64,000 nucleotides of DNA from contig NZ_CP064703.1 in NCBI RefSeq assembly GCF_023101085.1, positions 7,626,001 through 7,690,000 of the forward strand, given 5' to 3'. Below, in pieces: positions 12,485 to 47,108 of this stretch (its first letter is position 1; each line of letters begins with the position of its first letter). Position numbers and translations under genes: made by a program. The notes beneath the pieces were generated by a model. The model saw nothing but the letters and a program-made list of their open reading frames with translations. It was not told the origin of the DNA and did no database searches. Source of the stretch: Bradyrhizobium sp. 170. Lineage in GTDB: Bacteria; Pseudomonadota; Alphaproteobacteria; Rhizobiales; Xanthobacteraceae.

Positions 12485-12500
12485 TGGTAGCGAGAGAGGG
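12485..12500. repeat. Distal attachment-site repeat (att-left)
   Basis: TGGTAGCGAGAGAGGG is identical to the last 16 bases of the tRNA-Met gene at 47065-47080. It lies in a gene-free stretch 221 bases after the LysR gene and marks the left island end. Bases 12265-12484 are flank with no supported gene. Bases 12501-12750 are the island's left end and carry no gene, but they would encode the tail of the recombinase in a circular form (see findings). Confidence 0.78.
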
Positions 12501-12750
12501 CTACATGCAGTCCCCCACCCAATTCGAGGCTTTGTTTTCAAAGACTTACAGGGCGGCTTGATTCCAGACGCGCCATGAACTTGTCTCAGTTTTGGTGCAC
12601 AGCCCAAGCGGGCTTCCCGTGAGATGGCGAGCGCTCGCCTTCGGAACGTAGCCTGACAGGTGGCCCGCCCAGCCGGGTACGAAAGCGGGTGTGTAGCACC
12701 CCGCCTGTCTTCCCGTGCCACACCGTACACGCCCGGTGTAGTTCGCCACC

Positions 12751-13518
12751 TTAAGGCTCAGGTCGATCAAACCATGAGCCCGGTGGATGATTGGCTATTC
12801 GACGGGCGAAAACTGAAGCGGGCTTCCAGTCTTCCTTTCCGCGCCTGTCGAATAGAACGACTCCTCCTCTGGTGAAATAGGCAGGTCCGGGAATATCGCA
12901 GTCCACCTGCAAGTGGACCGCCCATAGGTCTCCGGTCTCGGGAACCTTGAAGGTTGGCGGCAAATAGGTCACGTGGACCGGATCGTTGGTGATAGCGCAT
13001 CGGCCGCGCTTAAGTAGATCGCCAAGCTTCCCCTGCGCCGTCGTGACGAAATTGAAGTTGGATAGATCATGCAGGAAACGAAGATTTGGGTTCTTCTCTT
13101 CCTCGCTGACCTCACTCGCAACGAGCGATAGAGCGAATGCCTGCCAGCCCAGCTCCATCGGTTTTGCATAGGGTGGCCCAAGTGTCATCGTCCCATCCGA
13201 TGCGACTTCCCAGGTGATCGTATATTCATCCCCTGTTTTTTCGCTGCTGTGTTTGGCCCATGAGAACACTACGACCTCGTCACCGCTGCCAGTCTTGGCG
13301 ACTTCCCACCCTCTCGGAACGAAGTGCGCTACCTTCGAGACCTTGGCGAAGATTTGTTCGGCGGTCTCGCCGTCCTGCGCTCGCCAGTCCTTCTTTACCT
13401 TAGCGACAAGCGTTGGCTCAGCCGCTTGGGCCATCATCGCAGCGAGCACGAACAGGCCTGTCACAATCATCATCGTCAATGACTTGCGGGTGTGCATTTG
13501 CATGGTCCGAACAATCAT
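12751..13518 (-). CDS. Secreted protein of unknown function coupled to a Mrr-type nuclease
   Basis: The 255-residue protein has a Sec signal peptide (hydrophobic run about residues 15-33, ending AQAAEP), so it should be periplasmic. The mature part has no family I recognise; it carries a cysteine pair (GRCAITND and VDCDIPG) that could form a disulfide, and GPAYFTRGGVVLFD near the end. The ATG at 13518 overlaps the TGA of the upstream nuclease gene (ATGA), so the two are translationally coupled. A later start near residue 7 or 9 is possible. Confidence 0.6.
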   Translation of the reverse strand: MIVRTMQMHTRKSLTMMIVTGLFVLAAMMAQAAEPTLVAKVKKDWRAQDGETAEQIFAKVSKVAHFVPRGWEVAKTGSGDEVVVFSWAKHSSEKTGDEYTITWEVASDGTMTLGPPYAKPMELGWQAFALSLVASEVSEEEKNPNLRFLHDLSNFNFVTTAQGKLGDLLKRGRCAITNDPVHVTYLPPTFKVPETGDLWAVHLQVDCDIPGPAYFTRGGVVLFDRRGKEDWKPASVFARRIANHPPGSWFDRPEP

Positions 13519-14465
13519 AAAAATGCTGGAGCCTCAGCGTGCCATCGCACAAGATTATCCATATCAACCAAAACGATTTTCTCCGAAAGCGCGGCGGACT
13601 CTGTCGCCTCCTCCGTAAAAGCGGATGTCGTGACGACGTAACCGCGCAGGGCGTTATGTTCCTCAATGACGCCCTTGAATTGCTGGATAGTGGGTCGACC
13701 GACCTTATTGTCAGTCGAATTTCGCTTGCATTGTACGATCATCAAACCTTCAGGGTGGATGGCAAAGCCATCAACGCCATAGTCATTTGATTTCCGCGTC
13801 GCCCACGACTCAAAGCCCGCAGCTTCGAAGAAGCTCATGGTGTGGCGCTCGAAATGGAAAGGGTCCATGCCGAGCAGATGTTTCCGAAGGGCCAACTCCT
13901 CCACCGGGACGGCAAAACGGGTGGGGTCCATCGGCTGTTCTTTCATCGCAGCCTTCATTTGCGCGCTAGCGCGGCGCAACCGTTCGTCTTGGACTATGAC
14001 GTCAATGATCTCGGCGATATGAGGCCGCGCCTCAGGGTTCGTTACAACAGCCTCGATTATTGAAGTGATGCCCGCCGCACCGAGAAAGATCAGCAACAGC
14101 ACCGGAACCCCAAGAGCACCGCCAAACGCTGCGACACCGGCAGCCTGTCCGCCAACCAATGGAATAGCAGCTAACGTCGCGGGGAGAGCGATCTTCATCG
14201 ACAGCGGAAGGTCAGACTTCCGGTAGTTCGAGACGGCTTCAGAAACGCTTTTCGCAATCGCCACAATGGCGGTTCGTGAACTAATAAGCGCGTTCAGTCT
14301 CTTGAATTTATCAACAGGACTTAGGTTACTCGCGACAACGGTTCGCGACTCGCTTAGCCATTGTATCGCGAGCACACGATCTTCCGCCCGCGTCGTGTGC
14401 TTTATAGCCGACGCAAACCGGCCAACCAGCCATTTCTTGATGCTCCCTGTGATTGTATCGAACAT
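13515..14465 (-). CDS. Membrane-anchored restriction endonuclease-like protein (Mrr_cat)
   Basis: The 316-residue protein has three parts: an N-terminal helical region, a hydrophobic glycine/alanine-rich stretch at about 88-135 that could span the membrane twice, and a C-terminal PD-(D/E)XK Mrr-like domain. In the last part FFEAAGFESWATRKSNDYGV leads to the catalytic aspartate of VDG and then to VQCKR near residue 243. Mrr-type enzymes cut modified or foreign DNA. Coupling to a secreted protein and the membrane segment are unusual for a restriction enzyme. The site is a defence-rich island. Confidence 0.65.
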   Translation of the reverse strand: MFDTITGSIKKWLVGRFASAIKHTTRAEDRVLAIQWLSESRTVVASNLSPVDKFKRLNALISSRTAIVAIAKSVSEAVSNYRKSDLPLSMKIALPATLAAIPLVGGQAAGVAAFGGALGVPVLLLIFLGAAGITSIIEAVVTNPEARPHIAEIIDVIVQDERLRRASAQMKAAMKEQPMDPTRFAVPVEELALRKHLLGMDPFHFERHTMSFFEAAGFESWATRKSNDYGVDGFAIHPEGLMIVQCKRNSTDNKVGRPTIQQFKGVIEEHNALRGYVVTTSAFTEEATESAALSEKIVLVDMDNLVRWHAEAPAFL

Positions 14466-16806: not shown

Positions 16807-17311
16807 TCAGATAAAACGAACCGCACGGCCTTCGCGCTCGAAGCTTCGATCCTTGTCGGCGGAGCGTGCAACGTTATAAGTTATCATTGCATCTTCGATC
16901 TTAGCTCGAAATCTCCGATCATTTTCCCGCTGCATTGAGTTCCGGAGCGTCTCGCTCTCTTTCTCGCTAAAGATCGGCCTCGACGCCTTCGCTTTGACGT
17001 TTCTGAGAATCATAAACTTTGAAATGTTGAGATATCGCTCCTCAACCGCATCTTCGCCGCAACCGTTCGCCGCATCGCTGTAAGGGATAAAATGCCTGAC
17101 GTTCAGCAGATCAAACTCGTCATAGATGGGATAACGTTCCGTTAGAACATCTAGCTCCGCATCAACGCGCGACGATGCCGATGCCGACATTTCGCGCTCG
17201 AACTCCCCTGCCTTGTAGTAGGCCGCGACCATTTTGGCAGGATCATCGCTAACGATGACGTTCGCAAGCTCGCGCCGTAGGACTTCTAGATAACGGGTCT
17301 CGGACTCAAGG
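16807..17311 (-). pseudogene. 3' part of a hypothetical gene split by IS66
   Basis: This frame encodes about 168 mostly charged residues (SETRYLEVLRREL, YPIYDEFDLLNVRHF) and stops at 16807. Its apparent start ATG lies inside the IS66 terminal repeat. Removing the element and one copy of the 8-base duplication joins it in frame to sequence on the far side: ERIR at 19864 onward continues into LESETRYLEVL. The gene is therefore insertionally inactivated. The family is unknown. Confidence 0.7.
17304..17311. repeat. IS66 target-site duplication, left copy
   Basis: ACTCAAGG stands immediately before the IS66 terminal repeat and is repeated exactly at 19856-19863 immediately after the other end. 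Eight bases is the standard IS66 duplication length. The perfect match points to a recent, simple insertion. Confidence 0.92.
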
Positions 17312-17398
17312 GTACGCATCCGACGAGCGCCGTCTTGCCTGACGCGTAGTATTTCGCGAAGCGTGTGACCTTAAGTCTAGCTTTAAGGTCATCAGGCG

Positions 17399-17800
17399 AT
17401 GCGGGTCGAGGTTTTAGGCGGGTTGGAGAGGCGGCGGCGCTGGTCGCAGGATGACAAGGCGCGGATCGTCGAGGAAACGCTGGTACCGGGCGCCAAGGTG
17501 ACAGATGTTGCGCGCCGCAACGGTGTCGCGGCCAGCGTCGTGTTCACCTGGCGCCGCCAGGCCCGGACGGTCGAGAAGGTCGGGACGTGTTTTGCGCCGG
17601 TGCAGATTGCCTTGGCGGTGGAGCCGAGCGCGGAAGAAGCGAAGCCGCTATCCAAGGATGACCGGCGGTTGCAGCCCGTGCCGGCCGCCCGGAACGGATT
17701 GATCGAGATCGATCTTGGCAACCGGCGACGCATCCGGGTGGATGCACAGGTTGACCCCGAGGCGCTGGCGCGGGTCCTCGACGTGCTTGAGCGCCGATGA
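17399..17800 (+). CDS. tnpA: IS66 accessory protein TnpA
   Basis: The 133-residue protein has the helix-turn-helix of IS66 OrfA/TnpA (RRWSQDDKARIVEETLVPGA, then VARRNGVAASVVFTWRRQ). It is needed with TnpB and TnpC for IS66 transposition. Its stop overlaps the tnpB start by four bases. Confidence 0.9.
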   Translation: MRVEVLGGLERRRRWSQDDKARIVEETLVPGAKVTDVARRNGVAASVVFTWRRQARTVEKVGTCFAPVQIALAVEPSAEEAKPLSKDDRRLQPVPAARNGLIEIDLGNRRRIRVDAQVDPEALARVLDVLERR

Positions 17801-18144
17801 TCGCCATACCAGGCAATGTGCGGGTGTGGCTTGCGACCGGCCATACCGATATGCGCCGCGGATTCCCGAGCCTGGCGCGTCTGGTTCAGGAGAGCTTGAA
17901 GCGTGATCCGCACGCTGGTGATCTCTACGTTTTTAGGGGTCGTCGCGGCGACCTGATCAAAATCATTTGGCATGACGGCCAGGGCGCGTGTCTGTTCACG
18001 AAAAGACTGGAGCGCGGCCGATTTTTGTGGCCATCGGTGGCGGACGGCGTTGTCACGATCAGTGTTGCACAACTATCCTATCTCCTGTCCGGAATTGACT
18101 GGCGAATGCCGCAGGCAACCTGGCGTCCGCAGGCTTCCGGATAA
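17797..18144 (+). CDS. tnpB: IS66 accessory protein TnpB
   Basis: The 115-residue protein shows the conserved TnpB sequence VWLATGHTDMRRGFPSLARL and ending LSYLLSGIDWRMPQ. TnpB is required for efficient transposition, and its biochemical role is unclear. It overlaps tnpA by ATGA and precedes tnpC by 69 bases. Confidence 0.93.
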   Translation: MIAIPGNVRVWLATGHTDMRRGFPSLARLVQESLKRDPHAGDLYVFRGRRGDLIKIIWHDGQGACLFTKRLERGRFLWPSVADGVVTISVAQLSYLLSGIDWRMPQATWRPQASG

Positions 18145-18213
18145 GCTGTGGCTTTTTGACTCACGACGGAAATCTAGCGGGATTTTTAGTGGCGAATATG
18201 TTGGATTGTCGTC

Positions 18214-19803
18214 GTGACGACGCCCTCCGATCCGCTTCCCGCCGACCTTGCTGCTGCGCACGCAATGATCCTTGCGCAGCGCGAATTGCTGATGCTGGCA
18301 AAGAGCGAAGTGACCGTGGGCCGCCTGGAAATCGAGCGGCTGAAGCTGATGCTGGCCAAAGCACGGCGCGAACAGTTCGGGCAATCTTCTGAACGCGGCA
18401 AGCTGCTGGTCGAGCAGCTCGAGCTGGCCATCGAGGATCTTGAAGAAACCCAGGCTGAGCAGGAAACCAGGGCCGAGATCGCAGCACCAGAAGCCGCCAA
18501 ACAGAAGCGTGCGCAAAATCCGCGGCTGCCTCGACGTCCCCTGCCGGACAATCTGCCTGTCGAACGTATCGTCGAACCCGCACCTTGCGCGTGTGGCAAG
18601 TGTGGCAGCGAGCGGCTGCACAAGCTTGGCGAGGTGGTGTCGAAGACCCTTGAATGCGAGCCGCGGCGCTGGAAGATCATCGAGCACGTCCGCGAGAAGT
18701 TCTCCTGCCGGGATTGCGAGGCGATCACCGAGGCGCCGGCGCCCTCACATCCGATCCCGCGCGGCTTTGCCGGGCCGAGTTTGCTGGCGATGGTGCTGGT
18801 CAACAAGTTCCTGCTGCATCAGCCGTTGAACCGCCAGAGCAAGACCTATGCTCGGGAAGGGATCGAGATCGATGTCTCGACGCTAGCGGATCGGGTCGGC
18901 GCCTGCGTGGTGGCGCTCGACCCCATTATTGAGGCGATCCGAACTCACGTCATGAGCGCGGAACGCATCCACGCCGATGACACGACGGTGCCCGTACTGG
19001 CGAAACTGAAGACTGTCATCGGCCGGATCTGGACCTACGTTCGCGATGACCGGCCGTTTGGCGGCAAAGACCCACCGGCGGCAGCGTTCCATTACTCGCG
19101 CAGTCGTGCCGGGGAACATCCACAAGGCCATCTTGCCGGCTATGTGGGCCTGATGCAGGCCGATGCCTTTGATGGGTACAACCAGCTCTACAAGGCTCAA
19201 AGGAAGCCGGCGCCGATCCTTGAAGCAGCCTGCTGGAGCCACGGCCGGAGGAAGTTTGTCGACTTGGTGAAACAGGGAGAAGCGCCGATCGCCAGCGAGG
19301 CTGTGCGGCGCATCGATATCCTCTTCGAGATCGAGCGCACCATCAACGGCAAAACGCCGGAGCAGCGGCTTGCCGTGCGCCGCGAACGATCACGGCCACT
19401 CATTGCCGAGCTTGAAATCTGGATGCGCCAGCAGCGAGCGTTGCTCTCCACCAAGAACGATACCGCAAAGGCGATCAACTACCTGCTCAACCGCTGGGCA
19501 GCGTTCACGCGCTTCCTCGACGACGGCCGCGTCTGTCTTACGAACAACGCCGCCGAACGAGCGTTGCGGGGTGTGGCGGTTGGAAGAAGAAACTGGACCT
19601 TTGCCGGTTCGGACGCGGGCGGCCATCGGGCTGCCGCTGTCTATACCTTGATCGAAACTTGCAAGATGAACGACGTCGATCCGCAAGCCTGGCTCGCTGA
19701 CGTGCTGGCCAGGCTTCCAGACCACCCAGCCAACAAAGTCGACGAATTGCTTCCGTGGAATTGGAAGGCGAACCAACGGTCAAAGCCCGCCGTTGCTGCC
19801 TGA
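18214..19803 (+). CDS. tnpC: IS66 transposase TnpC
   Basis: The 529-residue protein carries, in order, an N-terminal leucine-zipper-like region, a four-cysteine zinc finger (CACGKCG and CRDCE around residues 127-171), the catalytic DDE domain beginning ERIHADDTTVPVLAKLK, and the ending ERALRGVAVGRRNWTFAGSD. It catalyses strand transfer of the element. Length and motifs are complete, so the copy is probably active. Confidence 0.95.
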   Translation: MTTPSDPLPADLAAAHAMILAQRELLMLAKSEVTVGRLEIERLKLMLAKARREQFGQSSERGKLLVEQLELAIEDLEETQAEQETRAEIAAPEAAKQKRAQNPRLPRRPLPDNLPVERIVEPAPCACGKCGSERLHKLGEVVSKTLECEPRRWKIIEHVREKFSCRDCEAITEAPAPSHPIPRGFAGPSLLAMVLVNKFLLHQPLNRQSKTYAREGIEIDVSTLADRVGACVVALDPIIEAIRTHVMSAERIHADDTTVPVLAKLKTVIGRIWTYVRDDRPFGGKDPPAAAFHYSRSRAGEHPQGHLAGYVGLMQADAFDGYNQLYKAQRKPAPILEAACWSHGRRKFVDLVKQGEAPIASEAVRRIDILFEIERTINGKTPEQRLAVRRERSRPLIAELEIWMRQQRALLSTKNDTAKAINYLLNRWAAFTRFLDDGRVCLTNNAAERALRGVAVGRRNWTFAGSDAGGHRAAAVYTLIETCKMNDVDPQAWLADVLARLPDHPANKVDELLPWNWKANQRSKPAVAA

Positions 19804-19855
19804 GCGCTTCGCGGATGACCATCGCGCCCGCCTGGGGTGCTGGCCGGATGCGTAC

Positions 19856-20153
19856 ACTCAAGGCGGATGCGTTCGCTTTCGTCCGTGCGCCAAACCAAAA
19901 GCTTTTGCGCGCGTTTATTCGCCGCGCTGGCACCAACGGCGTACCCCCGAACAGGCAAACGACGGCAGTTGACACGACCGAAGTCGAAACGAGATCGGCT
20001 ATGCGGGTAGCCGATTTGCCGGGTGATCCTGAAGTCGAAGCCGTTTACGGTATGGAAGAGGTGTTCGTTTGGCTTCAGGAGTGTCCGCAACAGGTACGGC
20101 GCACCCTCGTATGGTGTTCCATGAACCGCGTCGTAACATAGGGCCGTTCCCAA
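19856..20153 (-). pseudogene. 5' part of the gene split by IS66
   Basis: Reading leftward, this frame ends SAANKRAQKLLVWRTDESER and joins in frame across the excised IS66 to the 16807-17311 segment. The only ATG in frame is at 20153, and the first 60 residues look less protein-like, so the true start is uncertain; TTG-GTT-TGG (LVW) is another possibility. Bases 20154-20226 hold no gene. The right copy of the target duplication is at 19856-19863. Confidence 0.5.
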
Positions 20154-21114: not shown

Positions 21115-24100
21115 TCATTCGCTGAGTTGACTGGGCCATTGTTCCAGCCCGCTTCTGGCAACCAAGTATATTCCATGATTCCGCGCGCGCTCTTCGGCTG
21201 CCCTTGAAAACCGTTTGGCATTGGTAAGTGCGAAAAGTCGGGTAACGCCCGCGTAGTTCGAACGCGCCCTCAAGAGATTTTCAATTGCTTCGGGCCCACA
21301 GGCACTATTGACATCCTGTTTATGCTTGCATTGCACGATAGCGCGCGCACCTGAAATCCGGTGCGACAAAAGGCCGTCCGCCCCACCATCGTAGGAGCGA
21401 GGTGTCCGATATGCTTCCCAACCCAACCCGACACACCTCCTGAGCGCCCATTCCTCAAAGGCATTGGGTTCCATCATATCGATTTCCGCGACTTCGTTCG
21501 GTTGTGCTATGGGCGTACGTCGCCCCAGCCGCTGGGCGAACCACTTTCGGTCTGCATCGGAATCGACTGGCGGAACTAGCATCCGATTTGAGAGAAGTCG
21601 CTTCTTTTCGAGCAATACATGTAACAGTTCATCAAAGCTGCCGTCGTTGTAAACTGGATGAACGGCCAATGGATAGTAAACGTGGACGTCGCGTTTAGCG
21701 CCGATACGATACACTCTATCGGTACACTGATCTTCAACCGCTGGGTTCCACCAGCGTGAAAGATGGATGACGTGATTAGCGCTTGTAAGCGTTAGCCCCA
21801 CGCCGCCAGCGCGCGGCGACAAAATCATCACGTCGAATGAGCCGATCTCAGACTGAAACGCATCTACTAGGTTCTGTCGCTTTTCTCCGCTCACCTCTCC
21901 GTTGATCTGCATCGGGCGTCGCGCGAGCTTGTATCTCCTTTGGATCATTAATGCGAGATGCTCCTGAAGATCCAGGCTCTCCAGAAAAATCAGGACCTTT
22001 TCGCGCTGAGCCGCGATCTCATCTAGGATCAGGAACGTCTCAGTGAGTCTCGCTGATTGCTCAATAAACGACTTCGGATCAACGATCTCGGTTGCGGGCG
22101 GCCACGTTGGATGGAGAGATACGCCTCGCAAAAAATGCAGAGTTTCAAGGATGGGACCTGATTTGGGCTCTCTCGCCCGAGCGACAATGTCGGAATAGTT
22201 TTGCGCTTGGATCCCTTGCATTAATCGTCGGCGAATATGAATATGCTTCTTCGGAAGCCCATCGAGATGGTCGGCCTTCATTCGTCGCAACACCGGTGCT
22301 GGACCTAGCGCGCTGGGATCAAGCATCGACTTCCGAAGGTTCTCTAACTGAGCTTCGCCATTGGGCTGATAGTCTCTACAAAAACTTTTTAGATCACCGA
22401 GTGTCCCTGGGCTGATGATATCCATAAGGCACCACAAGTCGGCCAATTGATTCTCGATTGGTGTGCCGGTGAGCCCCAGAACGAAATTTGAGTTCAATGT
22501 TTTGGCTGCACGCGTGAGAAGAGAAGACGGGGACTTTATCTTCTGCATCTCATCGAAAACGACGCACGAGAAACGAATAGATGCAAAGCTAAGGTGATAA
22601 TCTCGAAGGGTTTCATAAGTCGTCAGCACCCAATTGGACTGCTGGAGTTCGCGCCGATCCAACGAAGGAAAGCCTCGATTTATATCGTTGCTGCGATCAA
22701 CCTTTAGCACTTTAAGGTGGCGACCGTAGACTCTGCAGACGTTTCCTAGGCCGGGCTCGAATAGATGTGAACCATGTTCCTTCTCCCAGTTAGCCAGCAA
22801 CCCGGTAGGCGCGACGATCAGGATCGGGCCCGCAAACTCGGATGAAGAGATTGTCGAGTTGGTGCCCTCCCGCAACCAAGAGAGAAAAGCGAGTGCTTGG
22901 AGCGTTTTGCCTAGCCCCATGTCGTCTGCAAGCAAACCGCCCGAGTAACCGAGCCGCCACACCTCCTGCAACCAATTCAGACCGCTGAGTTGATGTTTCA
23001 TCAGACTCGGTTTGACCGACGATGGGACACCAAGCTGTAACCTCAATCTCGGCTTCACACTTCTCCGGTAGCCAATCGCATCAAAATTCTCTTCAATAAT
23101 AAGAACATTCTTATGCTCAGCTTCAGGCTCATCTTTTATAGTGGTCGGCGGGGTCTTCTCGTGATCCAAAGTCGGACGAACTAGTCCTACCAAATCACGT
23201 AAAGCTGTTTGGGTCTCTTCCGTGGTCGGGATCCGAGTCTTATCTTTGCCGAACTCTACGTAAGGTTCGCCACTTTTTGCGGCCTCGGTGATTTGCTGAC
23301 GAAGTGGCTCCAATTGTTCCGCCTTCAGAACGACGTACTCACCTCCGATGCGAAGTCCAAATTTTTCGGGAAGCCAATCGTTGGGTTCGCCCTTAATCCA
23401 GGGCAGCACCGGCGGAGACCAGATGCCGACGTCGATTACTCTTGCTGAATATTGCTCCGTCTCAATAAAGAGCTTCTCAATGTCGTCATCCGACAGAGCA
23501 CCCGCCAACGCTTCCTTCAGATAGACTTGCGGCGTTCGAGCGAATCTCTTGCGAGTATCGCTATCCGCCCGCTGCATTTGACGTACGACAGTTAGGCCCT
23601 GTCGTAGTGAAGGATCCAACGTTACGTACACACCACGCTCAATAACGTAGCTCGATTTGCAATCTTCAAATGAACGGAAACGTTCCCTTGCAAATAGGTC
23701 ATTCTGATGAGCAGTAAGCAAGCTCCCCGCTTCATCAATCAAAGCGCCGTCAGTTTCCGCGACAGCCGAAACGGAACGACCAAAAAGTATAGGGTCAAAA
23801 TCAAAGCTCCTGTCGACCGTCCTTAAGCTTAGGGAAAACGCAGTCGCGTGCTGCACACGAAAGCTGTTGAAGTAAGAGTCTATGCGAAGCTGATCTCGCG
23901 GCTCCTGCGGTAACAGGTTCTGTAGCCTTGCGATTGCAGAAAGGTCTCGCCCCTCCGGTCCTAGAGGTTTGGCGGCAAACGAATCAATAGCTTCGATTAA
24001 GCTAAACAGAGGTTCAGGAATTCGGTAGCGTTGATCGTTTACAAGCAAGAAAGCACCGTCGCGCTTCGTTCGATACGGACGATTTCCCTCCCCGATCCAG

Positions 24101-24444
24101 CGGCCAACGATACGGAAATTAGGATCGGTTATAAGATTTTGGGTCTCGACTTGGAGAAGGAGCTTCGTCGCTGGCACCAAGCCAAGACTGAGTGCTTGTG
24201 GTTCAGTCAATCCAGCGAGACTGTGATGATCAACGAAGAGTCCGTCCGCTCTTGGGTCCACCGTATTCTCGGCATTTTCTACCAAAGCCAAGAGCCGCGC
24301 GATGGCCGAAAAGCCTAGGTCAGAAGTCCGGGTTGCCCAATCATCAACGGCTATTGGTGCAGCGCTTCTAAAGGCTCTATTTTCTAGAAGCCGTAAGAAT
24401 ATGCCTCCATCCACGATATCGTATGAAAACTGCATACGTGCCAT
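21115..24444 (-). CDS. zorD: Zorya ZorD: SNF2 helicase with C-terminal Mrr-like nuclease
   Basis: The 1109-residue protein has a long N-terminal region (1-480), a SNF2 ATPase core with Walker A DDMGLGKT near 507, a Walker B variant VFDEMQKIK near 630 and LTGTPIENQLADLWCL, then the helicase C domain with WWNPAVEDQCTDRVYRIGA near 908. The last 120 residues form a PD-(D/E)XK Mrr-like nuclease (DGGADG and IVQCKH near 1036). In type I Zorya, ZorD is the DNA-degrading effector recruited to invading phage DNA. It follows zorC by seven bases and is the last gene of the operon. Confidence 0.9.
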   Translation of the reverse strand: MARMQFSYDIVDGGIFLRLLENRAFRSAAPIAVDDWATRTSDLGFSAIARLLALVENAENTVDPRADGLFVDHHSLAGLTEPQALSLGLVPATKLLLQVETQNLITDPNFRIVGRWIGEGNRPYRTKRDGAFLLVNDQRYRIPEPLFSLIEAIDSFAAKPLGPEGRDLSAIARLQNLLPQEPRDQLRIDSYFNSFRVQHATAFSLSLRTVDRSFDFDPILFGRSVSAVAETDGALIDEAGSLLTAHQNDLFARERFRSFEDCKSSYVIERGVYVTLDPSLRQGLTVVRQMQRADSDTRKRFARTPQVYLKEALAGALSDDDIEKLFIETEQYSARVIDVGIWSPPVLPWIKGEPNDWLPEKFGLRIGGEYVVLKAEQLEPLRQQITEAAKSGEPYVEFGKDKTRIPTTEETQTALRDLVGLVRPTLDHEKTPPTTIKDEPEAEHKNVLIIEENFDAIGYRRSVKPRLRLQLGVPSSVKPSLMKHQLSGLNWLQEVWRLGYSGGLLADDMGLGKTLQALAFLSWLREGTNSTISSSEFAGPILIVAPTGLLANWEKEHGSHLFEPGLGNVCRVYGRHLKVLKVDRSNDINRGFPSLDRRELQQSNWVLTTYETLRDYHLSFASIRFSCVVFDEMQKIKSPSSLLTRAAKTLNSNFVLGLTGTPIENQLADLWCLMDIISPGTLGDLKSFCRDYQPNGEAQLENLRKSMLDPSALGPAPVLRRMKADHLDGLPKKHIHIRRRLMQGIQAQNYSDIVARAREPKSGPILETLHFLRGVSLHPTWPPATEIVDPKSFIEQSARLTETFLILDEIAAQREKVLIFLESLDLQEHLALMIQRRYKLARRPMQINGEVSGEKRQNLVDAFQSEIGSFDVMILSPRAGGVGLTLTSANHVIHLSRWWNPAVEDQCTDRVYRIGAKRDVHVYYPLAVHPVYNDGSFDELLHVLLEKKRLLSNRMLVPPVDSDADRKWFAQRLGRRTPIAQPNEVAEIDMMEPNAFEEWALRRCVGLGWEAYRTPRSYDGGADGLLSHRISGARAIVQCKHKQDVNSACGPEAIENLLRARSNYAGVTRLFALTNAKRFSRAAEERARNHGIYLVARSGLEQWPSQLSE

Positions 24445-24451: not shown

Positions 24452-25840
24452 TCACCGCCTCCTGGAAGGCATGAATTCTATTGTTGACAATCTGAGGCCG
24501 GTGAACCGCCGAATATAACTTTCCGCCCTGCTCTGCCATCCATCGGGGGGAAGGTGAGCGATATCAAAATCAGACCCGGATCGGAGCTCGGTCGCAACAT
24601 AAGACGGTTCGTCAAAGCTCGGTGAGTTTGGGTTCCCTCGTCGCCAGATCCTCAGCTTTCCGTTGTGACTCCAATCAGCGATAGATAATTCGCCGATTTG
24701 CAAAAGTAGAACCGCCTGATCCGTACTGGCGCCACTCAAGCTCGCGAATCGCTTCATAAGGTTGTCGCCCGACTCTGCAGCAATCTGCCTAGCTACAGCC
24801 GCCCCGCTACTCCCAAAGGCTACCCACGCATTGCTTACCCAGCCTTTCTCGATGTAGGCATTCCAAAATGCGCGACGATACTCCCACTGATGTGCGGCCG
24901 CGACTCTATCGACCACCTTTAAGAACTGTTCGAGCGTTGCCTGAGCTAACCATCTAACCATAACCCCGCGTGCAGACTCATCGGTGCCGAGCCATGACCC
25001 ACGGTCGATTCTAGGGTCATTTACAGCGTCCAAAAGAAACTCTTGGATACGTTTGCGGATATCAAGTGGAGGATCTCTGTCAATCCACGGCCAAAGGAGA
25101 GTTTCAACAAGGTTACTTCGGTTGGCCAAGAAAAAGAGCCCCCCGGCGTCATTCCTAACCCACGCGATTGCGCGCTCCACGTCCCGAAGAGTGGGGTTGG
25201 TTTCGAGCCGATCTTGAATTGCTCTTAAACTACTCAGGAAAACGTGGGTGGAAAGACCGGTACCCCAGAGCTGCCCCCTTAAGCCAGCTTTAGCCAAATC
25301 TACTCGCGGCGTCACACTGTCAATGACGGACTGAGCAAGCTCCTGGGGCGCGCGCTCAGAAGTGAAAAACTTGTAAATGCGATGTCGTTCGTTCCATTCC
25401 CACTGGTCATCGTGAGCGGACACTGCCTCTGCTAGGAATGCACCAATGTGCCGAATGCCAGGATGAGCTGGATCGAAATGGACACAGTAACTATGAATGA
25501 GACGCTTCAGAATCATTCGGCTTCGAATTGGACGTATCGCGTCGAAATACTGTTCCAGGAATTTTTGGTCTTCAGCCAACCGTTCGTTGCCTTCAAACAG
25601 ACTACTCGCGGTCAGCCGCATCTCTCTCAACGATAGGTCGGCCAGCGCCCCCTCTTCTGATAATGATCGCAGCTTCAGGTAGAGATGTTCAAAGTCCGCC
25701 GGGTTTACAGCCTGGACTCTCGCATAACGTGTGTCGATAAGCTCGAACGATTTTTCCATAAGCGAATGACGACGCAGCTTGGGTTGTCGCACGATTGATT
25801 TGGTGCGTTTCAGCTCTTCCAATCGTTCGGCCAGATTCAT
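24452..25840 (-). CDS. zorC: Zorya ZorC (EH-signature protein)
   Basis: The 462-residue soluble protein lies between the MotB-like and helicase genes, exactly the position of ZorC in type I Zorya. It is rich in tryptophan and charged helices (WVRNDAGGLFFLANR, AHQWEYRRAFWNAYIEKGWV, AFGSSGAAVARQ), consistent with the EH-signature domain of ZorC. In studied systems ZorC binds DNA and works with ZorD in the cytosol. Its start overlaps the zorB stop by four bases. The assignment rests on context, length and these sequence features. Confidence 0.85.
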   Translation of the reverse strand: MNLAERLEELKRTKSIVRQPKLRRHSLMEKSFELIDTRYARVQAVNPADFEHLYLKLRSLSEEGALADLSLREMRLTASSLFEGNERLAEDQKFLEQYFDAIRPIRSRMILKRLIHSYCVHFDPAHPGIRHIGAFLAEAVSAHDDQWEWNERHRIYKFFTSERAPQELAQSVIDSVTPRVDLAKAGLRGQLWGTGLSTHVFLSSLRAIQDRLETNPTLRDVERAIAWVRNDAGGLFFLANRSNLVETLLWPWIDRDPPLDIRKRIQEFLLDAVNDPRIDRGSWLGTDESARGVMVRWLAQATLEQFLKVVDRVAAAHQWEYRRAFWNAYIEKGWVSNAWVAFGSSGAAVARQIAAESGDNLMKRFASLSGASTDQAVLLLQIGELSIADWSHNGKLRIWRRGNPNSPSFDEPSYVATELRSGSDFDIAHLPPDGWQSRAESYIRRFTGLRLSTIEFMPSRRR

Positions 25841-26838
25841 TGAGACGATCCAGATGATCGTAGGTCGATCCTCTTTTTGGCCACTTCCGCATTTGTAACG
25901 GCCATGAGGATGCGGAGGTCAATACGTCGATTTCGTTGCTTGAATTTATCAAGTGGTTCAGCTTCTGAACGAGCTACGGGACGATACTCTCCATACCCAG
26001 ACACACTGAGAACAGGCTTGCTATCCGGGCTTTTATATTCGCCAAGATCTGGCAACACCTTCAGAAGCTCTCGAAAAGTGCTTGTTGCACGCAATGCCGC
26101 CAAGTCGAGATTATCTTTAGGAGGCAGATTCGCCGGCCTGCGCTGATCGGGTGGATTACTCGGGACGTTTGGCGTCGGGCTTGGCTTGTTCAAAAATGAA
26201 AGTAGAGAGGGACGTTGCTCGCTGGGAATGGTATTTGCCTCGTCCGAACGTTTCCTTATCTGTTGGGTCATTTTGGAATTGGCTGGATTCTTGTAAGGAT
26301 CAGAGTCGGCGTGTCCTTCAATAAAAATGGCTTCAACCTGCGCCCGCGCCTTTTTATTCGGACAGCCGTCAACGTGAGACCGGGAGCCACTAGTGTAACA
26401 GGGCAGTACGATATCCAGTGCGCGTGCAAGCGACTTTAGGGCAACTACCCCTTTTGCGTTTAGGTCCCAACTGGATTTCTCGAAGAGAATTTCCTCTGGA
26501 AATCGCAGAATTCCTTCGTCCTTAATGATGGAAACAATGATGCCCTCCTTCTGAAGTCGGTCTCCGAGATTTTGGAGAATTTCCCATCGAGCGGCTTCAG
26601 AATCTGTTAGTTCGTCAATAAGCGTCTTCTGGCGCTCAGTAACTTCAAGCTGTTCCTCCGTGGCCTTCTCTTGGCGCTGAGTCGCTTGATCCTGCTGCTG
26701 CGTTGCCTGCTGGAAGCGCATAGCGAAGAACATCAACATGATTATAAAAACAAAGAGAAGCCCGATGACCACATCTGTCATCGATGCGAAGTAGCTTTCT
26801 TCGTCCTCGCTATGAATAGCGTTGCGACGCGTACTCAT
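25837..26838 (-). CDS. zorB: Zorya ZorB: MotB-like stator subunit with OmpA domain
   Basis: The 333-residue protein has a short cytosolic N-terminus, a single membrane helix (TDVVIGLLFVFIIMLMFFA) with the ion-binding aspartate at residue 22, a glutamine-rich coiled segment, and a periplasmic OmpA/MotB peptidoglycan-binding domain with FEKSSWDLNAKG and IFIEGHADSDPY. With ZorA it forms a proton-driven rotary motor anchored to the cell wall. The periplasmic domain includes a proline-rich insert around residue 205. It overlaps the zorA stop by one base. Confidence 0.92.
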   Translation of the reverse strand: MSTRRNAIHSEDEESYFASMTDVVIGLLFVFIIMLMFFAMRFQQATQQQDQATQRQEKATEEQLEVTERQKTLIDELTDSEAARWEILQNLGDRLQKEGIIVSIIKDEGILRFPEEILFEKSSWDLNAKGVVALKSLARALDIVLPCYTSGSRSHVDGCPNKKARAQVEAIFIEGHADSDPYKNPANSKMTQQIRKRSDEANTIPSEQRPSLLSFLNKPSPTPNVPSNPPDQRRPANLPPKDNLDLAALRATSTFRELLKVLPDLGEYKSPDSKPVLSVSGYGEYRPVARSEAEPLDKFKQRNRRIDLRILMAVTNAEVAKKRIDLRSSGSSQ

Positions 26839-28964: not shown

Positions 28965-29100
28965 CATCCACCCCTTTTCAGTAACCTCCATCTGACATTC
29001 TAACGCCGTAAGGCGTGTGCGTAATTCGATGGGTTCATTGAACGATTTGACGAGCTGCTTCGTGCCCCGTCGACTTCTGTCGAACACGCATAAGCAAACG

Positions 29101-29115: not shown

Positions 29116-29437
29116 GTGCTGAGTTACGCCCGGAATCTGTGGCCGGTCAAGCCCCGCAGTTGTCGCCGGAGCGGGCAGAGCGGTCCGACAGGCGCGGCGC
29201 AAAGGCCTACTTTGGTTGCAAATAATGCCGTTTGACGTTTGTGGTCTATTAGACTCTATGGTCAAGCCCGTTGAAATACGGATACACGGTCGGACTTGTA
29301 GAGCCGCCGCCAATCAGTCTATGCGTACTTATGTGAGAGCCCAAGCGGGTCACAGTAAAAGTTGCTCAGACGTTCGCTGTCTTGACGAAATTGGTTCGGC
29401 TCGTGCATGTGACCCGACAAACTTCGCGAGGCGACAC

Positions 29438-30223: not shown

Positions 30224-30273
30224 CGCGGAACCATCGGCGCTGTCTCTTCCAAGCTAGCGGATTAGAACTACAG

Positions 30274-35345: not shown

Positions 35346-36340
35346 TTGCTCATCAATGACCCCGCAGTTTGCGCGTGGGTTGAAGGTTTGGTTGCCGCCG
35401 GGCGGATACCGCTCGGCGACGTGGTCTGTAAATCAACAACTGAAATCTCCCCCGATGGTTGCCGAGGATACACTCAATGCCACTTCTTCTGTGGCATCGC
35501 CGGATGGCCAGTTGTCTTGCCCTTGCTGGGTGGCCGAACGACAAGCCGGTCTGGACCGGAAGCTGTCCCTGCCAACCCTTCAGCTATGCTGGACGTGAAA
35601 AAGGCGCAGAAGATGCGCGCCATCTCTGGCCCGCCTTCCACGCCCTCATCCGCCAGTGCCAACCTTCAACGGTGTTTGGAGAGCAAGTTGCGTCGGCTAA
35701 CGGAAGGCTGTGGCTCGCCGCTGTACGCTCTGACTGGAAGCACTCGGCTATGCCGTTGGGGCTGCCGATCTGTGCGTACTGGCGTCGGTGCGCCGCACAT
35801 CCGTCAACGACTGTACTGGGTGGCCAACGCCACTGACGAGCGACAGTCCTTACAGCTACGGACCCGGGCGACGGAGGATTCTGAAATTGGGCGGAGTGGC
35901 TCAAGTAGCGGGGTGGTCGACACCCAAGGCGTGCGACAGCGGCAGAACGGATGCGCTAACGATGGCCCGCTTCAACATGAAAACGAGCCGCTGCAACCTT
36001 ATCGGGGATGCGGGATGGCCGGTTGGGCTACTCCACGAGTGCACGACGGATGCACGGGCACCAGGACGCTGCTCGGGGCGGAGAACGAAGCGAAGCGCAA
36101 GGGCTGGAACAACGAGCTGGGGTAGCGGCCTTTGGGACAATACTGAGTGGATCGACTGCCGAGATGGAAAAGCCCGGCCAATTGAACCCGGAGTTAGCCC
36201 GCTGGCTCATGGGGTATCCGGCAGGGTGGTCCAGCGGTTACGGGAATGCGATTCGTCCCGGAAGCGGCTGCGACGTCCGTGATGGCGGCGGCGAACAACA
36301 ACCAGAGCGAAAGCGCGGCTGCGTGAGAGTTGAAAGCTGA
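35346..36340 (+). pseudogene. Phage-type C5 cytosine DNA methyltransferase, multiply frameshifted
   Basis: Three frames in series match this enzyme. 35346-35510 gives the N-terminus (NDPAVCAWVEGLVAAGRIPL, TQCHFFCGIAGW). 35510-35770 gives LALAGWPNDKPVWTGSCPCQ with the catalytic PCQP motif, RHLWPAFHALI and FGEQVAS. 35788-36282 continues with RPIEPGVSPLAHGV, and a further frame gives LNPELARWLMGYPAGWSS. At least three indels are needed to restore one protein, so no active methyltransferase is made. It probably came with a prophage or island. Confidence 0.75.
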
Positions 36341-41859: not shown

Positions 41860-44052
41860 CTATGCGAGGCGATAGAGCGGCCTTGCCTTGGTGCCCCCGA
41901 CATCAAGACTGCCAGACTTAACGGCTTCCAGGATGTAGCCCTGCACCGTCGAGCGTCTGAGTTCGTCGAGCCCATCGGCGACCCGCCTAGCGTTGACGGC
42001 CTTCCCGATCTCGCCGGATTGAAGCTCGATGCGTCGGGAGGCCGCCGACGGGCTTTCGTCGGCCGCCTTCTGTCGTTGCCCTTCGCGCTCAAACACATCC
42101 AGCACGGCCTGCAAACGATCCTCACGGCGGTCAGACTGATTGATAGTGGGCGCTTCCTCGTCATCGGTAACAGCCATGTCGGGCCCTTGGTACGGCTCGA
42201 CAACGCAGCTCCCGATCTCGTTGCCCCACTTATTGTGTCCGAGCGGGACGTACTTCAGTCGGAACTGCAATTTGAGACTCTTTGTGCCGTCGCGGCTCTT
42301 ATCGACCTTGACGGTCCGCAAGCCCGATTTGTCCTCAACAACATGCAACATCACATCCACGCTCGCCCGAATGGCAAACGAGCCAGCCGTGCTCCCGCTC
42401 CGGTTCTCATGATGGATGACCGCGATACAGATACCGAGTTCGTGCGCCAGCTCTGACAGAGAATCCAATACCGGCTTAGTCGCGGCACTGGTATGTAGAT
42501 CGCCGCTGCCGATCATCCCGATCAAGTTGTCAAGGACAACAAGGTGAACCTTCTGGCCGCTCTGCCCCTCGCTCAGTTCGATCAGCCGCTTCAACTTGCG
42601 AGCCGCCACGGACGGCTTCCCATCGAACGAAGGTAGCTCGAAGGATACGGCGATCCCCTTACCCTCGCCTAGTGGGCGCATCTTATGCAGTGCCGTCAGC
42701 CGCTTCTTGAGACCTTCCTGCCCCTCGCCCGCCACGAGCAACACGTCACCGCGCTCGGTGTTCAGGCCAAAGAACTTTTCGCCCCGCATGACCCGGTCAA
42801 GCATTTCGATTGCAAGAAACGTTTTACCGACGTTCGCATCCGCGTAAATGCAAGCAAGCCCGACCGCCGGCAACAAATTTTCGATCACATCCGGCGCAGG
42901 CGCGAAGTTTTCAAAGATGTTCGTCGAGCGCAGCACGGCGGAGTTTCTCGGCGGTTCGTCCTCGTCGACGACTGCGCCGAACGCTTCGCCGGACGACGGC
43001 TTGGAGAGGCCCTGATTCTTCAGCCACTCGCGAGCGATTTGCCGGTCGTCGTACTCGCCGGACTTCGGCTTCTCGTCGGTGTAGGTGCCAGCGCCTACCC
43101 AATTGGAGAAGAAGATCGACAGCGCAGGCGCAGGCATGTCCGGCCATTCGCGCATGACGTGGCGCGCTGCCAGGAAGCGGTTGGTCGAGCAGTCGGACGA
43201 CGGGTTGTCGTATAGCTCCCTGAACTCCGCGTTCTCTGCGCGCAGCTTTTCGAGATCGTATTCGCCAACATCGGGGTCGAAGTCGTTCTCGTGCTTCTCC
43301 CAATCGGCGTCCTGCAACGCATTGATGGCGTCGCGCTCTTTCGACGGTGACATGTCATCGTTGTGCTCGGCTTGCGAGCCGATCAGATCGCGGATGAACT
43401 CCGGGACTTCGGGAATCGTCTTGTTGACGTACGCGCGCAGGAAGCGCACGAGATCGTCGCGCGTGCCGTAGCTGCGGCCGTCGTCAAGCAGAGAGCCAGG
43501 CGCAACGATCTGTCCGCCTGATCCGCGTACGTCGGTGCCGTAGTTCTTCTTGAGCGCGCCTGCCTTGTTGGTGAAGCTGCGCTCGGGGTCGGCCAGGATG
43601 AAATGCTTACCGTCCGACTTGGTCGGCGAAGCCAGCACGCCCTCCGGCAGGCCGCCGTTCTCTTCCCACAGCGCGGCCATCTTCTCAGGGCCTTGGTCCT
43701 TCGCGTCGGCATCGAGCACGACGAGATTGGACGGGCCGGTCGCAATCGAGGGCACAGCGTCGCGGAATGCGCGCCACATGCGCTTGACGACTTCGGGATC
43801 CTTGGTGGAGCCGACATGAATCGGAGACTTGTCGTCGTGCTCTTCGCGGTACTTCTCAATGGCGGCTGCGCGATCTGCGGGGCTGATTTGGGTGTCGAGC
43901 CGATTGAACATCGGCACCAACGGGGTCTTGCCGCTCGACGGGAACACCGCGACCCCGACCTTAACGAGCATCAAGGCGTTCTCTTTGTTAATGTTCTGCC
44001 GGGCTCGTGTGTTGTCCGGTGCGGACAGCGCAATGACGCTAGACTTGTTCAC
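41860..44052 (-). CDS. Primase/helicase: Prim-Pol domain with RepA-like AAA ATPase
   Basis: The 730-residue protein starts at GTG one base after the preceding gene. Residues 20-220 form a bifunctional primase-polymerase (Prim-Pol) domain: VAVFPSSGKTPLVP, the metal-binding VVLDADAKD, and RGSGGQIVAPGSLLDDG. A KaiC/RepA-type ATPase follows, with a Walker A variant ADANVGKT near residue 405, VLLVAGEG, LVVLDNLIGMIGSGD and the sensor-like VIHHENRSG. Such proteins initiate replication of plasmids, phages and integrative elements. Iteron-like repeats lie just beyond its 3' end. Confidence 0.82.
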   Translation of the reverse strand: MNKSSVIALSAPDNTRARQNINKENALMLVKVGVAVFPSSGKTPLVPMFNRLDTQISPADRAAAIEKYREEHDDKSPIHVGSTKDPEVVKRMWRAFRDAVPSIATGPSNLVVLDADAKDQGPEKMAALWEENGGLPEGVLASPTKSDGKHFILADPERSFTNKAGALKKNYGTDVRGSGGQIVAPGSLLDDGRSYGTRDDLVRFLRAYVNKTIPEVPEFIRDLIGSQAEHNDDMSPSKERDAINALQDADWEKHENDFDPDVGEYDLEKLRAENAEFRELYDNPSSDCSTNRFLAARHVMREWPDMPAPALSIFFSNWVGAGTYTDEKPKSGEYDDRQIAREWLKNQGLSKPSSGEAFGAVVDEDEPPRNSAVLRSTNIFENFAPAPDVIENLLPAVGLACIYADANVGKTFLAIEMLDRVMRGEKFFGLNTERGDVLLVAGEGQEGLKKRLTALHKMRPLGEGKGIAVSFELPSFDGKPSVAARKLKRLIELSEGQSGQKVHLVVLDNLIGMIGSGDLHTSAATKPVLDSLSELAHELGICIAVIHHENRSGSTAGSFAIRASVDVMLHVVEDKSGLRTVKVDKSRDGTKSLKLQFRLKYVPLGHNKWGNEIGSCVVEPYQGPDMAVTDDEEAPTINQSDRREDRLQAVLDVFEREGQRQKAADESPSAASRRIELQSGEIGKAVNARRVADGLDELRRSTVQGYILEAVKSGSLDVGGTKARPLYRLA

Positions 44053-44053
44053 T

Positions 44054-44269
44054 TCAAAATCCTTGGCGATGGAACAAGATGTCCGGGTTGCATGTGCAAT
44101 CGAAACTGTTGTGGGTGCGTTCGGCCTTGCAGCCGGGATCGTGGGCTATGACCATGTGTGTTACGGTCCCCGGCCGGAAAGCTTCGCTAATCGGGACTTG
44201 CGGTAGCGACCGCGCGTACTTGGCAAACGCCTGGGCGTTGCGACGTTGCATCTTTCGGTCAAGGCTCAC
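44054..44269 (-). CDS. Small protein upstream of the primase
   Basis: The GTG at 44269 follows AGGAGGGATC, a strong ribosome site, and gives 71 residues. The product (VSLDRKMQRRNAQAFAKYAR) ends with a cysteine/histidine-rich part (HDPGCKAE, FDCTCNPD) that may bind a metal. It is one base from the primase start, so it is translationally coupled. The family is unknown. Confidence 0.5.
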   Translation of the reverse strand: MSLDRKMQRRNAQAFAKYARSLPQVPISEAFRPGTVTHMVIAHDPGCKAERTHNSFDCTCNPDILFHRQGF

Positions 44270-44270
44270 G

Positions 44271-44438
44271 TTAGATCCCTCCTGTGGTGGCCAGGAGGAG
44301 CACGCGCCCGCGCCGCGAATCGGCGGCCGGGCTACGGTTGGTTTCGCTGGCGTCCTCAATCGCGCCCTTACGAGCAACTTCTTCGTGGTGGTCAAACGGG
44401 TCGTGCGCGGCGGCCGCGGGTTGGTCGGTGATAGGCAT
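44271..44438 (-). CDS. Small ORF in the primase operon
   Basis: A 55-residue frame begins MPITDQPAAAAHDPFDHHEE and stops at TAA, one base before the next GTG start. The next gene's ribosome site lies within its last codons, the usual arrangement of real coupled genes. It was too short to be found by length alone. The function is unknown. Confidence 0.4.
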   Translation of the reverse strand: MPITDQPAAAAHDPFDHHEEVARKGAIEDASETNRSPAADSRRGRVLLLATTGGI

Positions 44439-44530
44439 GATAGGGTCTCAATGGTCGTGAAGCACAGCTCTGCTCGCCGTGCGGCGATGCTGCTGTGTTG
44501 ATGGGATTGTGGAGGGTGTGCCGCGCTGAT

Positions 44531-44779: not shown

Positions 44780-45308
44780 AGCTCGACTCCATCTTTATGG
44801 ACGCGCGAAGGCATCGGCCGAATCGCCGTCAAAGGACATTCAAAGGGTTGATGGTCGTCTAGACCGGCCAGCGCGGGGTTTCGCACACTGGAGCCGTATC
44901 GGATTTACCCGTCCGCCTCGGCCCCAAAAAGGAGCCGGCAGAATACCCGTCCGATCACGGCTAAACGTTGGGTGGGTGTCCACCCGATTTGATGTATTAA
45001 ATCACAGCCAGTCAGAAAATTGCAATTCGCGGAAGTAACCGACTGGCCCGGCCTTTCTCGGGCAATATCAGCCGGTACGGGCGAAATCTCAACTTACGGA
45101 AGAAAATAGTTGGCCCCCCACTCTGACCTTCCCGGACTTCCGCGAATTGCAATCCTGGCACTCTTCGATTAGACGGGACTGAGAACTCGATTGCTCGCCA
45201 ATCGGGCACCAAAGCAAAACAAAGCAACTCTAACCACAAACCCCATAAGCCCGGTCCGCGTAAGCGGGCCTTTTCAGCTTTTAGCGGACAGGTACTACCC
45301 TGCCCGAC
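44780..45308. other. Intergenic control region with long inverted repeat
   Basis: This gene-free stretch separates the divergent AlpA/primase and recombinase units. ATTGCAATTCGCGGAAGT at 45019-45036 recurs inverted at 45136-45153 without a mismatch. A GGGTGG-GTGT-CCACCC hairpin lies near 44970-44985. No gene is supported. Confidence 0.55.
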
Positions 45309-45500
45309 GTGGTGCTTTGCATGCTTTCTCGGGTGGATTCCTGTGGATCAACTGGCCTTCCGGCCGTCGTGGAGGACTTACCCGGCCCCTCCGGCCAGCG
45401 TAAGCTAGACCCCGATGTCGTCGCGTTCGTCGAGGCTCTGGCCTGGTATGCGGCGCGCAAGGATCATGAGGCCCAATTGGGGGCCACGGGGGAAGGCTGA
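45309..45500 (+). CDS. Small ORF coupled to the serine recombinase
   Basis: The frame ends LDPDVVAFVEALAWYAARKD and its TGA overlaps the recombinase ATG by one base (TGATG), implying coupling. GTG at 45309 is one possible start of 63 residues, and an ATG lies a few codons later. The family is unknown; it may be a recombination directionality or accessory protein. Confidence 0.45.
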   Translation: MVLCMLSRVDSCGSTGLPAVVEDLPGPSGQRKLDPDVVAFVEALAWYAARKDHEAQLGATGEG

Positions 45501-47108
45501 TGCTCCGCGCCGCAATCTACGCTCGCTACTCAAGCGACCAGCAGTCCGATAAATCCGTTGAGGATCAGATCGCGCTTTGTCGCGAACTGTGCCAGCGCGA
45601 GGGCTTCAGTGTGGTCGCGACATTCAGCGACCGCGCTATCTCGGGTGCATCGGTCATCAATCGGCCGGGCTATCAGAGCTTGATGCGCGCTGCGGAAGCC
45701 AAGGGCTTTGACGTGCTTGTGGCGGAAGACATGGACCGCGTTTTCCGCGATCAGGGCGACTACCATCACGCCCGGAAGCGCCTCGATCATCACGGCATCA
45801 CCATCCACACGGCAACCGGCAGGGTCGGGAAGCTGGATGGTGCTCTTCGCGCGCTGATGGGGGAAATGTACATCGATAATCTGCGGCTGCACGTCATTCG
45901 CGGACTTGAAGGCGTGGTGCGGTCCGGCAGGCATGCAGGCGGCAAGGCATACGGCTATCGGCCTGTGCTCGGCCGTCCAGGTGAGCTTGAGATTGTGGAA
46001 GGACAAGCCGAGGTCGTCCGGCGCATCTTCAAGGAATTTGCGCAAGGCAAAACGGCGCGCGACATTGCAGGCAGTTTGAACGCCGACAAGATCGAACCGC
46101 CGAGCGGGCTGCGCTGGAATGCCTCAACAATCTACGGCAACGTTCAGCGCGGCAACGGTATCTTGCTGAACGAAGTTTATGTCGGGCAGATCGTTTGGAA
46201 TAAGGTGACGATGGTCAAAGACCCGTCAACCGGCAAGCGGCTCTCACGACCGAATCCAGCCGCGAAGCATCGACGCGCACCTGCCCCCCATCTCCGTATC
46301 GTCGACGACAAAACATGGGCTGCCGCACAGGCGCGGCGTCGTACGCCTTCAGACACGAAGCCGAAGTTCCGCGTTGCGCGACTATTGAGCGGGCTTCTCC
46401 GCTGTCCGACGTGTGGCGGCGGCATGGGGTCGGTCGGCCTGCATCGTGGTGAGCCTCGGCGTGCAGTGCTCGACGTATCGCGAGAGTGGGTCCTGCACGA
46501 ATAGCCGCATGGTCAACCGCAACAAGATTGAAGCCGCCGTGCTTGATGGTCTCCGCGAAGTGCTTAACGACCAAGATTACTTCAAGGTCTATCTGAAGAC
46601 ATACAATGACGAACGCACGAGGCTCGCCCGTGGCGCTGTCAAGGACCGCGCAAATCTGGAACGCCGAATCGGAGAGATTAAGCGCGAGCTAGACCGGATT
46701 TGGGATGCGATTGCAAAGCTCGGCGCGGACCCTGCGAGCGTTGCTGAACGACTTAGAGCCCTAGCGGCGGAAAAGTCCTCGGTCGCCCAACAGCTCGCGG
46801 CGGCCGAAGACAAGAAGAAGACGGTTTCGATCCATCCGGCCGCGATCAACAACTATCTGAAAGACGTTGCGGCGATGCGCGAGGCGCTAGACGACGAAGA
46901 CGCTGCCGAGCGACCGGAACTGATCGCACCGTTGCGACGGTTGATCCATAGCGTCGTGGTGCATGCCGAGCCCGGCGTGAAGGGCTTCGAGGTCGAAATC
47001 AAAGGGCGTTTGCAGGAACTTCTAGGCGCTCCGTTCCTCACCCGTTCTGTGGGTGGGGGACTAGTGGTAGCGAGAGAGGGACTCGAACCCCCGACCCCAG
47101 GATTATGA
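45500..47108 (+). pseudogene. Large serine recombinase, frameshifted; 3' end lies in tRNA-Met
   Basis: Residues 1-150 are the resolvase catalytic domain (RAAIYARYSSDQQSDKSVED with the nucleophile serine, and SDRAISGASVINRPGYQSLM). The recombinase DNA-binding domain follows (GKAYGYRPVLG, ARDIAGSLNADKIEPPSGLR), then a zinc ribbon starting CPTCGG. Near 46460-46470 the frame shifts by one base and continues as QCSTYRESGSCTNSRMVNRN with the long coiled-coil and C-terminal part. Restored length is about 536 residues. The last codons run through the tRNA 3' end and give REGLEPPTPGL. Confidence 0.85.

Follow-up and report, generated by a model that had tools for sequence, protein, structure and literature searches.

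A 34.6-kb Zorya-bearing island at the 3' end of a tRNA-Met gene in Bradyrhizobium sp. 170, very probably inserted by its own large serine recombinase

The stretch of DNA analysed here, which we call the window, comprises 64,000 nucleotides of Bradyrhizobium sp. 170 (contig NZ_CP064703.1, positions 7,626,001 to 7,690,000 of the forward strand), and positions below are counted from its first letter. On the left lies a gene for a LysR-type regulator (11317-12264, plus strand; Pfam LysR_substrate and HTH_1), which is conserved in relatives and is the last core gene on that side, and on the right lies an intact tRNA-Met gene with the anticodon CAU (47065-47141, minus strand; called by ARAGORN and scoring 61.7 bits with Rfam RF00005). 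Between them is an island of 34,580 bp (12485-47064) with a type I Zorya system and, directly adjoining the tRNA gene, a gene for a large serine recombinase or LSR (45500-47108, plus strand). A reading made from the letters alone (the original prediction) had proposed an island of 34.6 kb bounded by a 16-bp copy of the tRNA-Met 3' end, with a foreign interior and core chromosome on both flanks. We consider it very likely that this island was inserted by its own LSR into the 3' end of the tRNA-Met gene, which is of the elongator type.

Borders and predicted attachment sites of the island

The 16-mer TGGTAGCGAGAGAGGG occurs exactly at 12485-12500 and at 47065-47080 (plus strand), as the original prediction had it, and the second copy is the last 16 nucleotides, CCA included, of the minus-strand tRNA-Met. 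The worry that it might be a common dispersed sequence can be set aside, as only two copies are present in the 9,195,219-bp genome with up to one mismatch, and the window holds two matches with up to two mismatches where 0.01 is expected, a number reached in 0 of 100 shuffles. The interior is indeed foreign in composition, with a GC content of 55.3% compared with 64.1% at positions 1-12264 and 64.2% to the right of 47141.

The ends of the island are also marked by its relatives (genomes and loci carry our labels G and L; G000 is the window genome). On the right, homology to the relatives compared begins at 47053-47065, except in G024, where it extends over the integrase. On the left, the sequence 12484-12567 is found twice in G024 (86-87% identity), 32 and 36 kb from the G024 tRNA-Met, and 12485-12557 is matched in G017 at 85%, at a distance of 4.5 kb from that genome's other core copy. 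In both genomes the flanks outside the core are unrelated where this left end recurs, so the segment 12485-12567 (plus strand) is a conserved element end, the island half of attL, and the left border is fixed at 12485 without an empty site. The two left ends in G024 stand in tandem at one tRNA-Met (L057/L188; 4006919, 4039141 and 4043036) and represent stacked insertions. Together with the symmetry described below, these sibling ends bear out the two 16-mer copies as the ends of the island and its proposed size; the 16-mer is the common core of attL (12485-12500) and attR (47065-47080).

An attP was built in silico by joining the right end of the island, the core and the left end. The joined ends carry inverted arms about a short core, as LSR sites do: the right arm TGGGTGGGGGACT at 47050-47062, in a right end that is the same in G024, is matched perfectly over 13 bp by its reverse complement, the left arm AGTCCCCCACCCA at 12509-12521 (both given on the plus strand). 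Arms of at least 13 bp arose in 2 of 200,000 shuffles, and a length of 13 was reached by 1 of 200,000 pairs of random 30-mers from the island. Core copies were sought in 16 genomes, and those without a second copy, in some cases since contigs end, were excluded from the symmetry test. All six joined pairs, which come from five elements, have their best centre of symmetry at the same place, between positions 11 and 12 of the core. At this centre 12 of 14 arm positions pair in G000 (equalled in 4 of 20,000 shuffles), 12 in G024b (2 of 20,000), 12 in G017 (15 of 20,000), 12 in G227 (1 of 20,000) and 13 in G102 (0 of 20,000). The two core copies differ at positions 2 and 15 in G227 and at position 15 in G102, and these mismatches bracket the exchange, which places the crossover between them; in the window the centre of symmetry predicts it at 47075-47076, equivalent to 12495-12496 at attL. 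The G227 tRNA-Met beside the LSR (L104, L196) reads TAG instead of the TGG found elsewhere, with the encoded CCA altered on the element side, and this tRNA may rely on 3'-end repair.

For the window island itself, the test suggested by the original prediction, an empty site joining 12484 directly to tRNA-Met, gave no such junction in 265 genomes of the genus. The left flank is matched at E<=1e-60 in 18 of them, own genome included, and the other 17 loci were viewed in longer stretches, some of which end with the contig. No tRNA-Met lies within about 1.5 kb of LysR at these 18 loci, nor at the 22 loci of a related search. The distance between LysR and tRNA-Met is under 100 kb in G022 and G250, where other DNA separates them (19.7 kb and about 75 kb, respectively). 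In G005 and G008 it is about 190-200 kb, and the tRNA-Met is found on the opposite side of LysR; in several draft genomes the two genes lie on different contigs, which is uninformative for an empty site. A block adjoining LysR in G005 was considered as lost core DNA and rejected, as it lies elsewhere in G000.

Empty sites were found for a sibling. The G102 element, with an LSR about 60% identical to that of the window, has its core copies 19.5 kb apart, and the 811 bp outside its left border are matched in 32 of the 265 genomes. Twelve loci among these genomes were taken up, one being G102 itself; at 3 of the 11 others (G021, G098 and G171) the match crosses the junction into a complete tRNA-Met, at four it stops inside the core (L241-L244) and at four it stops before the junction. 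The flank gene is of the glyoxalase type and not a mobile gene, so the G102 site looks like ordinary chromosome. In G021 (L237) a second tRNA-Met lies on the far side of the glyoxalase-type gene, about 0.65 kb away from the other copy. It is a relic of an earlier duplication or insertion and shows that the G021 locus has a separate history. For the G024 element, the outer flank is matched at scattered places in 101 of the 265 genomes, and none of the 15 loci taken up has a tRNA gene within the stretch.

The recombinase and its relatives at tRNA-Met genes

The LSR is the likely integrase of the island, in place of an enzyme of the tyrosine type, which is the common one at tRNA genes. Its first frame (45500-46504) matches Pfam Resolvase (PF00239, 2.4e-22) followed by Recombinase (PF07508, 7.5e-22), and a Zn_ribbon_recom match lies in another frame (46413-47108) at 22.3 bits, under the cut-off of 25.3. 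Alignment of the window DNA with G024, whose LSR is the nearest sibling and has an open frame of 538 codons, puts the break at about 46.55 kb, in the zinc-ribbon region; the G102 LSR frame is open as well. The window copy has no intact frame that includes the zinc ribbon and the C-terminal region, and is thus a broken member of the family, with a 3' end that runs through attR. A sequencing error may account for the break. If it is real, the island would now be unable to move by its own enzyme, and it is probably stranded unless an enzyme acts in trans, a search with this LSR having returned no second LSR in G000 at E<=1e-60. The best NCBIfam match, CcrB, scores 87.7 bits, far below its cut-off of 900. 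A tblastn search of phage and plasmid collections gave no match above 61% identity, the best plasmid match being NZ_CP121651.1 (Bradyrhizobium sp. CB82, 900,293 bp).

A search with the N-terminal LSR frame finds relatives at E<=1e-60 in 99 of the 265 genomes, and the counts that follow refer to the best 30 loci, own included. At 20 of these 30 ARAGORN finds a tRNA-Met beside the LSR; judged by sequence, 13 of these tRNAs are of the elongator and 7 of the initiator type. In a tree of the N-terminal regions the LSRs linked to the initiator gene, eight with L130, fall into a single group with support of 100/100, while the elongator label requires six changes. The initiator group consists of L118-L122, L125, L129 and L130. 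We find it probable that the genus harbours an LSR clade specialised on tRNA-Met, with one lineage at the initiator gene and others at the elongator gene, which restores the tRNA 3' end on insertion and carries swappable, partly anti-phage cargo.

Left flank and gene content

The claim that both flanks are core chromosome holds on the right and fails on the left. In the relatives compared, the left core ceases to be homologous within the LysR gene, at 12224-12236, and just beyond this gene lies a fragment of a tyrosine integrase gene (12264-12410, minus strand). All or most of this fragment matches the middle of a tyrosine integrase at 82-87% DNA identity in G254, G183, G044 and G073, and the G254 frame, which matches Phage_integrase, sits about 3 kb from the G254 tRNA-Met. 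Any part of 12238-12500 is matched in 9 of the 265 genomes, own included (E<=0.001), and the 17 bases before the core, together with the core, resemble the flank of the G006 tRNA-Met (33 bp, 94%). The left core border is thus at about 12264, not 12484, and some 220 bp to the left of 12485 are not core. Judged from such matches, the segment 12264-12410 is probably the scar of an older tyrosine-integrase island at the same tRNA locus, and 12411-12484 may be debris of it too. In G250 (L089; G250:C1:836466) a piece of about 55 nt from the 3' end of tRNA-Met lies about 0.83 kb from LysR and about 75 kb from the full tRNA-Met, which probably marks another, different island at this locus. The DNA near the same LysR gene holds a tRNA-Tyr in G024 (L078) and a tRNA-Lys in G217 (L084), indicating that the junction beyond LysR varies widely among relatives.

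Inside the island, the Zorya system announced by the original prediction is complete, with zorA to zorD adjacent on the minus strand from 29087 down to 21115 and each gene matched by a type I PADLOC model: 1) ZorA, MotA/ExbB/TolQ-like (26838-29087; ZorA1 2.6e-98); 2) ZorB, MotB-like (25837-26838; ZorB1 8.4e-75); 3) ZorC, with the EH signature (24452-25840; ZorC1 9.5e-101, Pfam EH_Signature); and 4) ZorD, a SNF2 helicase with an Mrr-like nuclease (21115-24444; ZorD1 E=0, Pfam SNF2-rel_dom, Helicase_C and Mrr_cat). Compared with known type I Zorya we saw nothing unusual in it. The further defence genes that had been expected are represented by an Mrr-type restriction endonuclease (13515-14465, minus strand; Pfam Mrr_cat 6.9e-28, PADLOC PDC-S02 and mREase_IV) and a GmrSD-type restriction protein (30786-32621, plus strand; Pfam GmrSD_N and GmrSD_C, PADLOC HEC-06 4.4e-38). 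A piece of HsdS, the type I specificity subunit (32904-33701, minus strand; PADLOC Specificity_I), covers only profile positions 114-154 of 168 of Pfam Methylase_S, and with a DNA-methyltransferase-like stretch at 35346-36125 it perhaps represents the remains of a restriction-modification system. Two open reading frames (ORFs) at 29216-30675, between Zorya and the GmrSD-type gene, have no Pfam or NCBIfam match, and a GC-rich stretch (17001-20000, 60-61%) within the low-GC island holds an IS66-family transposase (18214-19803, plus strand; Pfam DDE_Tnp_IS66).

The islands of the window and G024 have in common the LSR, a Prim-Pol/AAA replication protein (41860-44052, minus strand; Pfam Prim-Pol and AAA_25, 41% identity to the G024 protein) and a small ORF (44054-44395, minus strand; 51% identity over 73 amino acids at the same place in G024, no NCBIfam or Pfam family), the last two of which we regard as backbone. 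The other window island ORFs tested against G024 gave no tblastn match at E<=1e-6. Only 1 of 10 large frames in the G024 island, a methyltransferase, matches PADLOC at E<=1e-10, so this LSR element family is not solely a vehicle for defence. A Pfam scan of 28 island ORFs gave no relaxase or conjugation match, as would mark an integrative and conjugative or mobilizable element (ICE or IME), and no structural phage gene, as would mark a prophage; PHROGs likewise gave none for 10 island proteins.

Origin of the island and comparison with known systems

Several observations weigh against insertion by the island's own LSR as set out above. The window LSR is not intact, and for the window island the search of the 265 genomes yielded no empty site. 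Ten of the best 30 LSR loci have no full tRNA-Met in the stretch examined: a 53-nt piece of the initiator gene is present at L130 and a weak match of 27 nt to the elongator gene at L114, L103 (G017) has a core at both ends with no tRNA called by ARAGORN, and at the remaining seven neither tRNA-Met is matched convincingly. A second core copy near the LSR (up to one mismatch) was found in only 4 of the 16 genomes, namely G024 (two), G102, G227 and G017, and one of the six joins, G024a, is weak: 9 of its 14 arm positions pair, and 1379 of 20,000 shuffles do as well.

The tyrosine-integrase fragment just outside attL, with the G254 integrase gene some 3 kb from tRNA-Met, could suggest that a tyrosine integrase inserted the island, the LSR being a passenger and the 16-mer the usual tRNA repeat of such enzymes. 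We regard this as very unlikely, as the repeat does not enclose the fragment, the conserved end begins with the core and accompanies the LSR in G024 and G017, related LSRs are repeatedly found at tRNA-Met, and the 28 island ORFs scanned with Pfam include no tyrosine integrase. The long inverted arms also argue against it, since symmetry about the core is the pattern of LSR attP sites. A chance repeat or rearrangement, in which the 16-mer at 12485 is a leftover of an unrelated event and the true border is elsewhere, could be argued from that fragment and from G250, which has a longer stretch of tRNA-Met close to this LysR gene. It is exceedingly improbable, because the 83 bp from the core onward are a conserved element end, which already contradicts a chance repeat, and the symmetry of this end with the other one far exceeds that of shuffled sequences. 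That at least two elements, nested or in tandem, make up the segment and share the outer repeat, so that the 34.6 kb were not one transferable unit, is unlikely but deserves more weight, given that stacking occurs in G024 and that the island contains an IS66 element and an HsdS piece. Against it, the window holds no third core copy at up to two mismatches and the two outermost ends pair by symmetry.

Insertion by the island's own LSR would therefore be our preferred account of the locus, and catalysis by the window enzyme is suggested by comparison of sequences. An attP whose core equals the last 16 nucleotides of the tRNA and is flanked by inverted arms of 13 bp would have recombined near core positions 11-12, leaving one core copy at each end and a tRNA with its full 3' end and CCA. 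The island would have brought the type I Zorya system, the restriction genes and the Prim-Pol replication gene to a site probably occupied earlier by a tyrosine-integrase island, and the integrase fragment between LysR and attL seems to be what is left of that older element. With its integrase frame now broken, the island would probably be fixed unless moved in trans.

Searches of the accessible part of the literature on serine integrases at tRNA genes gave no description of this LSR family; large island databases may hold such elements, to judge from the sections available of two sources (PMC12424338, PMC12884075), and those of a third (PMC12924846) hold nothing on tRNA targets. The enzyme class is known and its tRNA target looks unusual, and we make no claim that it is unreported. 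Exact borders are now available for a Zorya-bearing island. With several related LSRs and predicted attP and attB sites at two tRNA-Met genes, the acquisition of a tRNA target by an LSR becomes directly testable, and such LSRs could serve as tools for insertion at tRNA genes.

Known large serine integrase attP sites are of comparable size and have inverted arms, and the joined attP of the window, at about 50 bp with inverted arms, resembles them. Like the phiC31, Bxb1 and Ccr-type enzymes, the window LSR has Resolvase, Recombinase and zinc-ribbon domains; unlike theirs, its attB overlaps the 3' end of a tRNA gene and the common core is 16 bp. Mesorhizobium belongs to the same bacterial order as the window organism, and its ICEs and IMEs use tRNA-Met, as the window island does, as well as further tRNA genes. 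In the part available of a survey of these elements, 6 of 79 have serine integrases and tRNA-Met is among the sites, the two not being linked there (PMC8627217). In streptococci, ICEs with serine integrases target rumA and further protein genes, according to the available sections of one report (PMC4701971). In mycobacteriophages serine integrases are reported, in the sources as far as covered, to avoid tRNA genes, a rule that the tRNA-Met-specialised clade, if true, would break. Tyrosine-integrase islands and ICEs are described, in the available parts of two sources, as inserting at a tRNA 3' end, with the tRNA restored and a direct repeat at both ends (PMC8092301, PMC9262239). The window island shares all three features with them and differs in that its enzyme is of an unrelated class and its attP arms are symmetric, which suggests convergence, with an enzyme class of different mechanism using the same tRNA 3' end site as the tyrosine integrases.

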